Origin: Pelotomaculum sp. UBA3103
GTDB taxonomy: Bacteria; Bacillota; Desulfotomaculia; Desulfotomaculales; Pelotomaculaceae
NCBI GenBank assembly: GCA_002365855.1
Contig: DFAP01000099.1
Span: 1-27,586 of the forward strand
DNA length: 27,586 nt
Direction of reading: 5' to 3'
In this document: piece after piece, positions 22,909 through 27,586 of the stretch
Position numbering within the stretch: the first letter of the stretch is position 1
Layout of the letters: every line of letters starts with the position of its first letter
The notes under the pieces: generated by a model
The model's input: the letters and a program-made list of their open reading frames with translations, nothing else
Told to the model about the DNA's origin: nothing
Databases searched by the model: none
Translations under genes and position numbers: made by a program

Positions 22909-23145
22909 TATATTGTTCACAAGGTCGGCACCCCGGAAGGGTAATTTCGGAGCTCAATGGCTGGCCTGCGTTTTCCCCTGTCAACGCTTCACGTGCAACC
23001 TCGCGGCTGTCCGCGCATGACTCGGGGCCGTGGTGGTGCAGCTACTCCTTCCACGTAGGGCTTCTTTCATCCCCATCTCTATGCCGGTTTAGCCCGGCGC
23101 TTTCAGAACGTCCCTTGCTTCCTTTCTTGCTGCCACTTGCTTCCC
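22909..23145. other. Non-coding GC-rich block of unknown nature
   Basis: About 235 bases with no convincing gene. Frames on both strands are short and lack ribosome sites. The composition changes sharply from the AT-rich DNA before it, and it contains several potential stems, such as GCCGG/CCGGC at about 23081-23095. It looks like a remnant of a mobile or structured RNA element, possibly the leader of an intron-type element, but I could not recognise it. Confidence 0.35.
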
Positions 23146-24017: not shown

Positions 24018-24084
24018 ATAAAATTCCAGGTACCTTTTTAAACATGTGAAATGTACCCATTCATACACGAAAAGGACCCATTTG
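24018..24084. repeat. IS-end-like sequence and left copy of a flanking direct repeat
   Basis: Positions 24018-24054 match 27548-27586 (see that entry). Just inside, the sequence continues with ATGTACCCATTC, TACACGAAAAGGACCCATTT: short repeated CCCATT words spaced like the multiple terminal repeats at IS21-type insertion-sequence ends. No transposase gene is present. This is likely a degraded element end; the family call is tentative. Confidence 0.45.
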
Positions 24085-24111
24085 GACAATATCGGTAGAC
24101 TTGGCTAAAAT
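24082..24111 (+). promoter_or_regulatory. Sigma-A promoter candidate for the small ORF/riboswitch/agr leader
   Basis: TTGGAC and TAAAAT are separated by 18 bases. The predicted start near 24118 would place the hairpin, the small ORF, the riboswitch and the terminator in one leader RNA ahead of the agr-like genes. Confidence 0.45.
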
Positions 24112-24142
24112 TATTTGATACGCTTTTTAAAAAAAATAATGG

Positions 24143-24195
24143 GGGTGATAGTGGTTCGTGAGGCAAACCAGGGAAGTCCACAAAAACTATCACCC
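24143..24195 (+). other. Strong leader hairpin upstream of the small ORF
   Basis: GGGTGATAGT pairs perfectly with ACTATCACCC over 10 bp, and GTGG with CCAC can form an alternative inner stem. The large loop contains GAGGCAAACCAGGG. The structure ends 12 bases before a small ORF with a good ribosome site, so it may control that ORF or protect the message. It does not match a riboswitch class I know. Confidence 0.6.
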
Positions 24196-24207
24196 TGAGG
24201 GTTAAAG

Positions 24208-24336
24208 ATGAGATTAATTAAAATTATTTCCTTGCTTGCTGTCCTAGGTTTAATAACAGTAATTGGAAGTAATTCCATTATAGCTAATAAGGCTGTTACG
24301 AGTAATGATGGGTACAAACTGCTAAAGACAGGGTAG
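24208..24336 (+). CDS. Small signal-peptide-like protein (42 residues)
   Basis: A short ORF not assigned to any family. GAGG lies nine bases before ATG. The product starts MRLIKII, then a hydrophobic run (SLLAVLGLITVIGSN) and a short polar end (KAVTSNDGYKLLKTG), like a signal peptide followed by a small secreted tail or a single-span membrane peptide. Its last codons overlap the first 30 bases of the predicted riboswitch aptamer, and the stop TAG lies inside it, so ribosomes translating it would disturb folding. It could be a leader peptide, a secreted peptide, or a chance ORF. It has no AgrD-like signature. Confidence 0.45.
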   Translation: MRLIKIISLLAVLGLITVIGSNSIIANKAVTSNDGYKLLKTG

Positions 24337-24389
24337 TAAAATTACGGGCCTAAAGCACAGTGTCTGTTGATGCAGTCGGGCTCGCCGGA
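24307..24389 (+). promoter_or_regulatory. Probable GEMM-I cyclic-di-GMP riboswitch
   Basis: The order of conserved GEMM-I elements is visible: ACAAACTG, a small CTG/CAG hairpin with a purine-rich loop, GGGTAGTAAAA (in place of GGGACGCAAA), TTACGGGCCTAAAG (tetraloop-receptor region), a variable stem, and the closing GCAGTCGGGCTCGCCGG, which fits the usual AGCCGGGTTGCCG. The 3' half matches better than the 5' half. A terminator follows 33 bases later, as is typical for riboswitch expression platforms. The class ligand is c-di-GMP; a cGAMP-type variant cannot be excluded by eye. It stands upstream of the agr-like kinase gene. Confidence 0.65.
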
Positions 24390-24421
24390 AAAAGAGAAGA
24401 CATAATATATGCAGCTAATAT

Positions 24422-24452
24422 AGCTCATCCCGGTACCGGATGGGCTTTTTTA
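24422..24452 (+). terminator. Riboswitch-associated intrinsic terminator
   Basis: AGCTCATCC pairs with GGATGGGCT (9 bp, one G-U) around a 7-base loop and is followed by TTTTTT. It lies between the aptamer and the kinase gene, so ligand binding could decide whether the agr-like operon is transcribed. The sense of the switch (on or off) cannot be read with certainty. Confidence 0.8.
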
Positions 24453-24492
24453 TTTCAGATCTGAGATTGGCATTCTGTGATTAGATAAGGGG

Positions 24493-24525
24493 ATACCCTT
24501 TCAGACACCGAAAAGACCCTTTCGC
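24493..24525. repeat. Diverged copy of the IS-end-like repeat
   Basis: This segment (ATACCCTTTCAGACACCGAA, then AAGACCCTTTCGC) resembles 24052-24084 (GTACCCATTCATACACGAAA, then AGGACCCATTT) in the same order with small gaps. It suggests that repeat units of the same origin bracket the small ORF and riboswitch. Confidence 0.4.
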
Positions 24526-24580
24526 GCAAACACAGCAGGAATTGTGATAATAAATGATAATTACTTGGAGAGTGAATTTA

Positions 24581-25954
24581 GTGGATCAAATGACTGTCTT
24601 GCAACTATTATTAATATCCCTGCCAGAGGCTATGTTGGTAGCGGCGCTGGGTATCACTCTCGCAGGATTTGGTCCGCGTCCGGGGCAGTTATTTATAATC
24701 GGTATTTTTCATGCGTTAGTTTCTTATATCATCAGGTCGTCCCAAGTGCCCTTCGGCCTGCACACAATAGTACTGCTCTTAGCTTTTATCCTAATAATTT
24801 ACGCGGTCACCCGTCTAAACCTAATAACTTCCACACTGGCGGGTTTGTCAGGACTCACTGTATTTGCTGTGGTAGAAATGCTGATCGCCCCGCAGTTACT
24901 GAAAATAACAGGTTATACATATGAACAGGCTCTTAACGACCCAATATTGAGAATCTACTTCTTTTTGCCGGAAGCCGCTGCCATCATTTTAATAATTATT
25001 TTATGCCGGCGCTATCGTATAAACATTTTGTCTTACTGGAAAAAAACAAAACAAACCGGTGGGTTAACCATGTCGAGGGATGAAGACATGTTGGAGGAAG
25101 ATTTCTATATAAAACAGTACTTCCCGCTAATTGCCCTGGTTCTAAGTCCCATCCTGTTATTGGCAATATTAAATACAGCTTTCTTTTTATCCCGCGTCGG
25201 CAGTATTTCTGATTCATATTTAAATATCTTTACGACTTTTATCAGCTTGGCGGTAGTAATTTTAGCAGGTTTATCTGTAGTAGCAATTAAAAGAATCGCC
25301 AAAGTTGTAGAAGTGGAGTGTACGGCTAGACAAACGGCGGAGATGCTTTCCCGGATGGAAGATCTAATCTATTCCATCCGCCAACAGCGCCACGACTTCA
25401 ATCACCACCTGCAGGCAGTGTACGGCTTCCTTGAAGTCGGCTCTTTCCGGGAAGCCAGAGACTACATAAGAAATACATTTAGCGCGATTACCACCCATGG
25501 GGAACTTATCAAAACCGACAACCATGAAATAAGCGCCCTGTTGTATACAAAAATCGGATTGGCAGAGGCAAAGAATATAGATTTTGAAGTTTTAATAAAC
25601 TGCAGCCTTAAAGATATACCGTTAAAATCTGGAGAAGTCAATTCCGTTCTGGGCAACCTGATTGATAACGCCATGGAGGCAGTAGAAAATGACACCGGAG
25701 ACAGGTGCCTTATAACAGTAGAGTTAATCCGCAAGTCCAATGAGTTTATTTTTACAGTAGCCAACCGGGGCAACCCAATTGAACCGGAAATCATGGACAA
25801 GATCTTTGAACTAAACTTCTCAACTAAAAAAGACAGGCAAGGTTTGGGGCTGGCCATAGTTAAAGAACTAGTTGAACGATGCAATGGTTCAGTAAACGTA
25901 TCTTCAAATAGTGAGGAGACGATTTTTACAGTCCGCATACCCGCAATAAAGTGA
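24581..25954 (+). CDS. AgrC-like GHKL sensor histidine kinase
   Basis: A 457-residue membrane kinase. The first 240 residues or so hold five to seven hydrophobic helices, as in AgrC-type peptide receptors. A coiled segment (MSRMEDLIYSIRQQRHDFNH) includes the phospho-acceptor histidine in RQQRHDFNHHL. The GHKL ATPase shows SVLGNLIDNAMEAV (N box) and RQGLGLAIVKELVERCNG (G box). GTG at 24581 has GGAGAG eight bases upstream, while the ATG at 24554 has no site. It is the first gene of a four-gene operon with AgrB, AgrD and a LytTR regulator, so it most likely senses the peptide made by that AgrB/AgrD. Expression is probably governed by the riboswitch-terminator upstream. The order kinase-first differs from the usual agrBDCA. 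Confidence 0.9.
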   Translation: MDQMTVLQLLLISLPEAMLVAALGITLAGFGPRPGQLFIIGIFHALVSYIIRSSQVPFGLHTIVLLLAFILIIYAVTRLNLITSTLAGLSGLTVFAVVEMLIAPQLLKITGYTYEQALNDPILRIYFFLPEAAAIILIIILCRRYRINILSYWKKTKQTGGLTMSRDEDMLEEDFYIKQYFPLIALVLSPILLLAILNTAFFLSRVGSISDSYLNIFTTFISLAVVILAGLSVVAIKRIAKVVEVECTARQTAEMLSRMEDLIYSIRQQRHDFNHHLQAVYGFLEVGSFREARDYIRNTFSAITTHGELIKTDNHEISALLYTKIGLAEAKNIDFEVLINCSLKDIPLKSGEVNSVLGNLIDNAMEAVENDTGDRCLITVELIRKSNEFIFTVANRGNPIEPEIMDKIFELNFSTKKDRQGLGLAIVKELVERCNGSVNVSSNSEETIFTVRIPAIK

Positions 25955-25963
25955 GGATTTTTA

Positions 25964-26602
25964 ATGAGCCTATATAGCGCTTCAACTAAAATGGCAAAGT
26001 ACATTACCAGGGAATCTGAATTGGGTTCGGGCCAGACTGACCGTGTGCGCTACGGCCTGGAAATTATCCTGGGAACGCTAATTAAAGGAGTCATTCTTTT
26101 AACATCCGCCTGCTTCCTGGGAATCCTGCCGCAGGTAATGATCGCTCTTATTTGTGGTAGCCTGCTGCGCCTGGTGAGCGGCGGCGCACACTGCACCAGT
26201 TATCTGCGTTGCCTGAGTTTTGGTTTGGTTGTCTACCTTTCCGCAGGCAAGATTGCTCTAAGCCTGGAGAAATTCTTAAATCTCGACCAGTTAGCAATAA
26301 TATTATTACTCTGCTTCTTAGCAATGTCTTTATGCGCCTGTCTGTGGGCTCCAGCCGAAGTTCCCTACAGGACAATAAATTATAATGAACAGATTCTTTT
26401 TAAAGGGCTCACTTTAGTATTTCTAACTGTTTTAATAACTGCCGCCTTTTTGTCTGTCGGCCATATCAGAGTATCTTTCATATTGGCCGGACTCTTGGCC
26501 TTGTTGGCGCAGACTTTTAGTTTAACCCCGCCGGGTTACCTGATAATTGGTAAAATTGACGAATTATTATCTATATCATTAAAAGGAAAGGAGGTGCGTT
26601 GA
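25964..26602 (+). CDS. agrB: AgrB-like peptide-processing membrane protease
   Basis: A 212-residue membrane endopeptidase of the AgrB family. AgrB cuts the C-terminal part of AgrD and closes the (thio)lactone ring. The family core RLVSGGAHCTSYLRC is complete: the R near 69, GG, then catalytic His76 and Cys83 with the usual six residues between them. Several hydrophobic helices surround it, as expected. ATG follows GAGGA at about seven bases and lies 9 bases past the kinase stop. The agrD-like gene follows directly. Because the predicted peptide lacks cysteine, this AgrB should make a serine lactone, a less common activity in the family. Confidence 0.93.
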   Translation: MSLYSASTKMAKYITRESELGSGQTDRVRYGLEIILGTLIKGVILLTSACFLGILPQVMIALICGSLLRLVSGGAHCTSYLRCLSFGLVVYLSAGKIALSLEKFLNLDQLAIILLLCFLAMSLCACLWAPAEVPYRTINYNEQILFKGLTLVFLTVLITAAFLSVGHIRVSFILAGLLALLAQTFSLTPPGYLIIGKIDELLSISLKGKEVR

Positions 26603-26752: not shown

Positions 26753-27508
26753 ATGAGCATAACGGTTCTTATCGCGGAAGACGATCCGGCCATGCGCCAT
26801 ATTCTCAGGAAAGCTCTTGAAGAAATACCCGATGTAGAGATTATCGGTGAAGCGGAAGATGGTGTGGAAACAATCCGCCTGGTAGAAGAACTTGCTCCCC
26901 AGGTCATCTTTCTGGACATCGCCATGCCGGAAAAAGATGGGTTGGATGTCGCACGGGAAATATGCGAATCCAGCCCCATGACCAAGATCATCTTTGCTAC
27001 GGCCTATGAAAACTTTACCCATCAGGCTTTTGAAGTTTACGCCTTCGATTATTTAATTAAGCCATTTAAGATCGACCGGATTCGTAAGACCATGGAATGG
27101 ATCAGATCAAGTCATCCTGAATCAGAACAGGCTACACACGAGTTAAACAATCCTTTTCAAGCTGAAGCCGGCCCGGCGAAAATACTGATAAAAGAAGAAG
27201 GAAAGCTAATACTCGTAAATATCAGAGATATTATCTTTTTAACCAGAGAAGGGCGACTCATAGTCATACATACCATTGGAGGCGAATTTAAAACAACAGA
27301 GACATTGGAAGCGCTAGAACGAAAACTGTCAGAGCATTCCTTTTTCCGCAGCCACAGGGGATTCATTATCAATATGAATATGGTAAAGGAAATACAGCCC
27401 TGGGGTAGAAAGACATGCAAGGTAATCTTAAACAATACCGAAGAATCGGTCATAATGACCAAAGCCAGGGCCAGGGAGATGGAAAAAAGATTTGGAATGA
27501 ATTTATGA
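26753..27508 (+). CDS. AgrA-like LytTR response regulator
   Basis: A 251-residue regulator with a receiver domain (residues 1-120; acidic EDD near 9, phospho-acceptor D55 in VIFLDIAMPEKDG, Lys in LIKPFKI) and a C-terminal LytTR DNA-binding domain (about 145-250; LVNIRDIIFLTREGRLIVIH and FFRSHRGFIINMNMV are the family hallmarks). It starts at ATG with GGAAGG about ten bases upstream and lies 25 bases past agrD. It is the cognate regulator for the kinase in this operon and would activate targets that carry paired LytTR sites, probably including this operon. It is followed directly by a terminator. Confidence 0.94.
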   Translation: MSITVLIAEDDPAMRHILRKALEEIPDVEIIGEAEDGVETIRLVEELAPQVIFLDIAMPEKDGLDVAREICESSPMTKIIFATAYENFTHQAFEVYAFDYLIKPFKIDRIRKTMEWIRSSHPESEQATHELNNPFQAEAGPAKILIKEEGKLILVNIRDIIFLTREGRLIVIHTIGGEFKTTETLEALERKLSEHSFFRSHRGFIINMNMVKEIQPWGRKTCKVILNNTEESVIMTKARAREMEKRFGMNL

Positions 27509-27547: not shown

Positions 27548-27586
27548 ATAAAATTCCTAAGTGTACTTTTTAAACATGGGAAATGT
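27548..27586. repeat. Right copy of the flanking direct repeat (cut by window end)
   Basis: This 39-base segment repeats 24018-24054 in the same orientation: both begin ATAAAATTCC, then differ over a few bases, then continue TACTTTTTAAACATG and GAAATGT (the left copy has TACCTTTTT and TGTG for GGGG-type differences). The window ends inside it. Two such copies bracket the 3.5-kb module with the riboswitch and the agr-like genes. Confidence 0.65.

Follow-up and report, generated by a model that had tools for sequence, protein, structure and literature searches.

Peptide signaling of the agr type and the messenger c-di-GMP are global lifestyle regulators of Gram-positive bacteria, and the two are normally joined through proteins. 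In the peptide circuits, direct repeats are the known operator of AgrA/VirR regulators, and AgrA and VirR boxes with a period of about 21 bp adjoin, upstream, the −35 element that is activated. In c-di-GMP-I (GEMM-I) riboswitches, a GNRA loop on P2 docks to a receptor in P3. For C. difficile, excerpts of one study state that transcripts of c-di-GMP phosphodiesterases, and the Cd1 riboswitch region, are lowered when agrA is mutated (PMC3754575). According to the same excerpts, the link herein runs from agr to the c-di-GMP enzymes, i.e., in the opposite direction to the one considered below (PMC3754575). The class I riboswitches of C. difficile act as OFF switches, as stated in excerpts of a second paper (PMC6200980). 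Among the listed, best-ranked open-licence papers on c-di-GMP riboswitches and agr, none was seen to describe a riboswitch in front of agr or the family-level placement given here; an earlier mention is possible.

The window, meaning the whole stretch of DNA analysed, comprises 27,586 nt of contig DFAP01000099.1 from Pelotomaculum sp. UBA3103. An earlier note on this DNA had placed an agr-like operon behind a riboswitch leader, and the operon is borne out by the domain matches of its genes: the full set of agrC, agrB, agrD, and agrA forms one operon (Table 1). The window AgrC reaches 64.8 bits with the staphylococcal AgrC model (cut-off 500) and the window AgrB 38.2 bits with the AgrB-like equivalog (cut-off 282). 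Both scores lie below their cut-offs; hence, the system is agr-like and not staphylococcal. A second agrC copy in the same genome (L128, G000:C45:22500-24200) is broken by in-frame stops; behind it, an agrA-like reading frame stays open as far as the retrieved sequence extends. GGDEF is matched 11 times in the genome (one match is broken), and c-di-GMP-I riboswitches occur intact at six other places in it (48.6–74 bits), so that c-di-GMP signaling likely exists in it. When agrD was compared with 11 relatives, the AgrD motif was found to read PASF in the window and in P. propionicicum, to carry Cys (PACF, PVCF) in the aptamer-bearing loci L061, L062, and L066 as well as in L069, and to carry Ser in the aptamer-bearing L084; Ser versus Cys possibly corresponds to lactone versus thiolactone signals. 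The window ends (27566–27586) in a CTTTTTAAACATGGGAAATGT stretch that resembles 24034–24054, and another AgrA-boxed unit may thus follow the agr operon. At gathering level, the sole Rfam hit in the whole window is a group II intron piece (RF02005, 95.5 bits) at 22922–23064 on the minus strand, between tsaD and an alpha/beta-hydrolase-like gene, and none falls at the leader.

Table 1. Features of the agr leader and operon in the window, followed by the above-threshold aptamers before agrC in relatives
Feature	Position	Strand	Basis or remark
Two LytTR/AgrA-type 13-mer boxes, ACCCATTCATACA and ACCCATTTGGACA, 21 bp apart	24055..24088	+	Upstream of leader unit; putative
Sigma-70-like promoter TGGACA-17-TAAAAT, candidate distal promoter	24083..24111	+	10 of 12 matches
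Shortened leader-element copy, core TGGTTCGTGAGGCAAACCAGGGAAGTCC	24141..24195	+	GGGTGATAG/CTATCACCC stem closes; usual 3' arm missing
42-codon ORF, hydrophobic signal-peptide-like N terminus	24208..24336	+	Translation
Likely c-di-GMP-I (GEMM-I) aptamer relic	24305..24390	+	Infernal match 24317-24389; outer limits by eye
Intrinsic terminator, stem-loop plus T run	24422..24452	+	Hairpin 24422-24446, then TTTTTATTTC
Two LytTR/AgrA-type boxes, ACCCTTTCAGACA and ACCCTTTCGCGCA, 21 bp apart	24495..24528	+	Between terminator and agrC; putative
agrC-like sensor histidine kinase, GTG start	24581..25954	+	SPOB_a, HATPase_c, HATPase_c_5
agrB	25964..26602	+	PF04647, E 4.3e-32
agrD, cyclic-lactone autoinducer precursor, 40 aa	26605..26727	+	TIGR04223, 30.7 bits, cut-off 19
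agrA-like response regulator, receiver plus LytTR	26753..27508	+	PF00072, PF04397
Aptamer, L061, Peptococcaceae BRH_c4b			64 bits, RF01051
Aptamer, L062, Desulfocucumis palustris			64.3 bits, RF03167
Aptamer, L066, Pelotomaculum terephthalicicum JT			65.9 bits, RF03167
Aptamer, L084, Clostridiales K_7_2_bin.50, same contig as G230:C22			80.9 bits, RF03167
Aptamer, L202, G196			75.1 bits, RF01051
Aptamer, L203, G261			75.1 bits, RF01051
Aptamer, L204, G158			77 bits, RF01051
Aptamer, L213, G466			68.9 bits, RF03167

The intrinsic terminator that had been seen before the AgrC-like kinase gene was confirmed. It aligns with the terminator kept in P. propionicicum, and a similar hairpin with a T run is found by eye at the corresponding place in PtaB.Bin104. 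Since shuffles of the same region also yield a mean of 0.8 terminator-like loose matches each, the conservation in P. propionicicum weighs more than the match itself. Weak Rfam hits to PyrG, Thr, and L10 leaders in 24100–24600 were set aside, as all of them span the terminator hairpin and the T run. Downstream of the terminator, direct repeats with a step of 21 bp precede the operon and constitute putative binding sites of a LytTR/AgrA-type regulator; an exact search of the genome for the box pattern returned only this pair and the one at 24055..24088. The score of the latter pair was reached in 0 of 200 shuffles, both of its boxes being part of the weight-matrix training set, as are the boxes before agrC. 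Of 23 leaders examined with the weight matrix, that of the window among them, 17 have repeats before agrC; the step is 21 bp in every case, and at most 6 of 200 shuffles score as well. Seven loci (window, L057, L058, L059, L061, L062, and L066) supplied the training boxes of the matrix, so that the result is descriptive for those. In L072, L073, L078, L080, L082, and L085, the same matrix finds the repeats absent or not clear.

The main evidence for a riboswitch in such leaders comes from relatives. AgrC relatives were gathered from named genomes (33 loci), from 113 genomes of the order, and, as best matches, from 398 genomes of the phylum. The Rfam scan at gathering score covered 65 sources, which represent 59 distinct AgrC-type sites (one source occurring twice, five sharing a site), not all of them full leaders. 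Eight of the 59 sites carry a c-di-GMP-I clan aptamer above cut-off before agrC and on its strand, and 51 carry none. The model given for each aptamer in Table 1 is the winner of the Rfam clan competition, four being RF01051 and four RF03167. By label, the eight operons span five families (f1, f5, f64, f89, and f108); they are non-independent through shared ancestry, and L202 and L203 are nearly identical. In a genome-wide RF01051 search of the order, 3 of 27 agr-bearing genomes show an aptamer in the agrC leader among the matches listed (from ~31 bits up), namely G079, G043, and G001 with 67.9, 64, and 67.1 bits, which are the same three intact leaders inside the order. With 161 matches listed at E ≤ 0.1 in about 90 Mb (27 genomes), we calculate a chance placement of ~0.0002 per site for a 200-base slot on the same strand, before allowing for the preference of riboswitches for leaders. 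In SCADC1_2_3, a 37.7-bit aptamer lies after agrA, not before agrC.

All eight aptamers keep the GAAA loop as well as G20, A47, and C92, which we take to be the ligand-contact positions of the c-di-GMP-I riboswitch; hence, the expected ligand is c-di-GMP and not cGAMP. The label c-di-GMP-I-GGC that RF03167 would imply for L062, L066, L084, and L213 was rejected, since position 47 is A in 8/8 copies and G in none. In L062, the sequence GCAAAGC stands against GCGAAGC in the RF03167 consensus, so that this copy looks canonical and not of the GGC kind. The order aptamer, terminator, boxes, agrC is common to all eight relatives and the window. Relative to agrC, the aptamers lie between −305 and −158, the terminators between −186 and −111, and the repeats between −114 and about −40, the repeats ending about 40–60 nt before agrC; the window element is found at a distance matching these aptamers. 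The layout was determined by script, and repeats missed by the regular expression were added via the weight matrix and inspection. According to the script, a terminator follows the aptamer in 8/8 leaders, that of L066 having a poor T run. Conservation in relatives, on which the earlier proposal partly hung, thus holds for eight other agr operons with an above-threshold aptamer and a terminator at the same place. Judged from these sequence models, the placement of a predicted c-di-GMP riboswitch before the putative agr autoinduction promoter is recurrent across the family.

Compared with these copies, the aptamer-like stretch of the window is degenerate. It shows the conserved order of GEMM-I segments that had been claimed for it, and its 5' half is indeed the deviant part; the claim fails, on the other hand, at the Rfam threshold, as a permissive run over 24100–24600 gives RF01051 only 12.9 bits against a cut-off of 35. 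The earlier note had itself counted the lack of an Infernal hit at threshold as evidence against the riboswitch, and no such RF01051 hit exists in the window. The P2-side hairpin is shortened, and its loop is UAAA instead of GAAA, hence no GNRA loop (CUAAAG, as compared with CGAAAG or UGAAAG in the eight intact copies). By eye, in a register set against L059, the positions of G20, A47, and C92 can be filled with G, A, and C; Infernal aligns the 5' half otherwise. One alternative is that the stretch is a working, diverged GEMM-derived riboswitch that controls the terminator with shifted affinity or toward another ligand. The three placeable residues would fit this, as would the pairing of G21/U22 with A50/U51 that the same register allows by eye, the kept terminator, and the similar diverged aptamers (31.9–37.7 bits) in AgrA-boxed leaders of SCADC1_2_3. 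Nevertheless, a working switch is unlikely, given the low score, the altered loop and hairpin, the overlap of the 5' half with the last codons of the 42-codon ORF, and the loss of that half in P. propionicicum, an 85% relative.

How far the resemblance exceeds chance can be appreciated from several scores. For RF01051 in the 501 bases of the permissive run, the library-wide E is 7.7; removal of the library-wide correction gives a one-family E of ~0.002 by our own arithmetic. Genome-wide, the match has an E of 8.6 and ranks 7 of 7 listed, behind the six intact riboswitches, and about nine chance matches at 12.9 bits are expected in a genome of this size by Infernal's own estimate. It is the sole subthreshold match listed at E ≤ 10, which is weaker than it sounds since 150 of 197 first-look candidates were scored. 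The best local alignment to 12 GEMM-I sequences scores 43 and is equalled by 2 of 200 dinucleotide shuffles. For four aptamer-less control leaders, the same test gives 12, 54, 181, and 195 of 200, and for the P. propionicicum leader 79 of 200, meaning that the latter is not significantly GEMM-like alone. The control with 12 of 200, L063, has a fairly good score. Our own sequence-only GEMM profile R2, which emerged without base pairs, does not report the window stretch at E ≤ 10 with default filters, and minimum free energy folding of 24300–24460 is no better than that of shuffles (z 0.38). These two results, together with the subthreshold score and the genome-wide E, would suit a chance resemblance, wherein the terminator closes the upstream unit of boxes, leader element, and 42-codon ORF, and the AgrA-box promoter alone drives agr. 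Such a coincidence appears quite improbable, as so few shuffles equal the alignment to real aptamers and as the only subthreshold match listed in the genome falls at the position of above-threshold aptamers in eight relatives. We therefore judge the stretch to resemble GEMM-I more than expected by chance, weakly on its own and with the relatives making the case, and to be likely a decayed c-di-GMP-I (GEMM-I) aptamer.

Decay is also what the nearest relatives suggest. P. propionicicum, whose AgrC is 85% identical, keeps the terminator, the repeats, and only the 3' half of the aptamer, a call that rests on alignment to the window; hence, the window copy is best read as a relic. PtaB.Bin104 (AgrC 64%) retains a terminator-like hairpin and repeats. 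Further leaders, from Desulfotruncus arcticus, BM5_bin.10, and G075 (genomes G071, G075, and G049), contain by eye a terminator resembling that of D. palustris and no aptamer. The AgrC tree pairs the window with P. propionicicum (100/99) and places both in a five-row clade (99/98) together with SCADC1_2_3, PtaB.Bin104, and G047. Another clade (100/99) unites the three intact leaders, the three terminator-only leaders, and one without either. The position of L084 in this tree is void, its sensor and kinase lying in two frames and being misframed. The pattern implies either an old arrangement with repeated losses or its gain on more than one occasion. The AgrC of L213 is 78% identical to that of D. 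palustris although the L213 genome lies outside the order, suggesting that the unit was transferred as a whole. The range from intact through half-lost to terminator-only leaders offers a natural experiment in which the riboswitch is shed and the operon kept.

For the intact relatives, we propose that c-di-GMP would bind the aptamer and alter how much upstream transcription passes the terminator into agrC. By analogy with the class I switches of C. difficile, c-di-GMP may favor termination. When partial transcripts of the eight leaders were folded, no antiterminator stood out clearly: the 5' arm of the terminator paired with the aptamer at a mean of 0.16–0.44, so that the polarity is not derivable from the folds. 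Because the repeats stand between terminator and agrC, the AgrA-driven transcript should start downstream of the riboswitch, lack it, and escape its control. The direct transcriptional control proposed in the earlier note needs correction at this point, since only transcription from further upstream would be affected. With the autoinduced promoter beyond the riboswitch, c-di-GMP would gate the priming of the quorum circuit and not its self-sustained state. That the aptamer of the intact relatives also serves an AgrA-controlled transcript, the repeats being the operator of a promoter before the riboswitch or AgrA being a roadblock to read-through, gains from the weak promoter matches upstream of the intact aptamers (best 7–9 of 12 by sigma-70 matching, none found for L213) but is improbable, as AgrA and VirR boxes adjoin the −35 they activate and those of the eight leaders lie so close to agrC.

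A relic aptamer in the window combined with a c-di-GMP gate on priming only in the eight intact relatives is, on balance, the probable explanation. The direct control of agr by c-di-GMP that the earlier note had envisaged is accordingly split: the missing threshold hit and the lost 5' half in the nearest relative make it doubtful for the genome of the window, and the eight intact relatives support it elsewhere. As the 5' half has drifted though the terminator is kept, c-di-GMP has probably lost its control of agr in this genome, and the only remaining role of the terminator is likely to stop transcripts that come from the AgrA-boxed unit further upstream (24055–24336). Taken for itself, the window with its likely relic and plausible terminator is ordinary. 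More tentatively, several Bacillota lineages might use c-di-GMP to gate quorum ignition and not upkeep, and Pelotomaculum-type genomes might be losing this gate with the terminator left behind. If so, c-di-GMP would decide on entry to the quorum state and would be unable to switch off a running loop, and the riboswitch before the autoinduction promoter would be a single-RNA junction of the agr and c-di-GMP networks. A layout wherein the messenger sets entry and the peptide loop holds the state predicts hysteresis.

Upstream of the relic, the window contains a second AgrA-boxed unit (Table 1). Promoter-like sites are about as frequent in this region (three found) as in its shuffles (mean 2.0). 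The 42-codon ORF has no match in NCBIfam; its start resembles, by eye, a secreted protein behind the same leader element in P. propionicicum, and the ORF may represent either a truncated remnant or a gene for a small peptide. When the leader was used as a DNA query, window 24150–24195 proved to be conserved in 14 of 60 genomes at E 0.001, a count that includes the genome itself and G009 (matched by another part of the query) and thus leaves 12 other genomes. The full leader element measures ~100 nt and consists of the almost invariant core and arms able to pair, as in L142 1501-1598, L147 1501-1598, and L148 1501-1603; in most copies, a G-rich stretch is followed by a mini-ORF of 3–9 codons. 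Seventeen loci with the element, scanned at E 1, gave no match of it to any Rfam family. The full-length model R1, built from 19 copies, yields 38 matches in 21 of the 113 genomes of the order, two of these matches being mirror copies on a palindromic contig of G109, and does not report the window copy. A plain hydropathy rule, which has no background rate and also flags the AgrC start, was applied to 33 distinct copies (37 loci minus two without the core and two repeats): the first ORF is signal-peptide-like in 23, doubtful in two more, and acceptable on a more lenient view in L153 and the window, and six copies lack such an ORF. Covariation is thin, with two-sided change in 2 of 13 pairs, so that an RNA structure is a plausible reading.

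The leader element was rejected as the driver of the agr link, its census being wider than agr. AgrA-type boxes precede only some copies; among the regions scored with the matrix, clear pairs stand before those of the window, L145, L146, L148 (mirror L164), L155, and L168 and, by eye, L119 and L120. A diverged GEMM aptamer immediately precedes the leader element in SCADC1_2_3 and in G037, with AgrA-type repeats ahead of the aptamer in SCADC1_2_3. The units of SCADC1_2_3 (L059 2930-3600, L119 250-760, and L120 260-770), which house the 31.9–37.7-bit aptamers mentioned above, run from repeats, promoter, and aptamer to leader element and secreted-protein gene, which gives the impression that quorum and c-di-GMP inputs also converge on target genes. 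In P. propionicicum (L057 8169-10799), two agrA-like matches come after agrC and agrB, and behind the second (residues 38–251) lie AgrA-type repeats and a copy of the leader element.

Compared with the described families, the window shares with RF01051 the order of conserved segments and the intrinsic terminator on the 3' side, and differs from it in the score, the shortened hairpin, and the UAAA loop. The eight relatives pass the thresholds of RF01051 or of its clan sister RF03167 with contact residues and loop intact; those that pass as the GGC variant have A, not G, at the distinguishing place. With VirR/AgrA (LytTR) box pairs, the repeats have in common their occurrence in two or three copies, the step being 21 bp wherever an agrC leader has a clear pair (17 leaders), whereas these putative sites follow a consensus of their own, e.g., ACCCTTTCAGACA. 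The agr systems of S. aureus and C. difficile share AgrC, AgrB, AgrD, a LytTR-type AgrA, and AgrA-type repeats before the operon. The systems described here are set apart from them by the gene order agrC-agrB-agrD-agrA and, in the eight relatives, by a predicted riboswitch and terminator upstream of the repeats.
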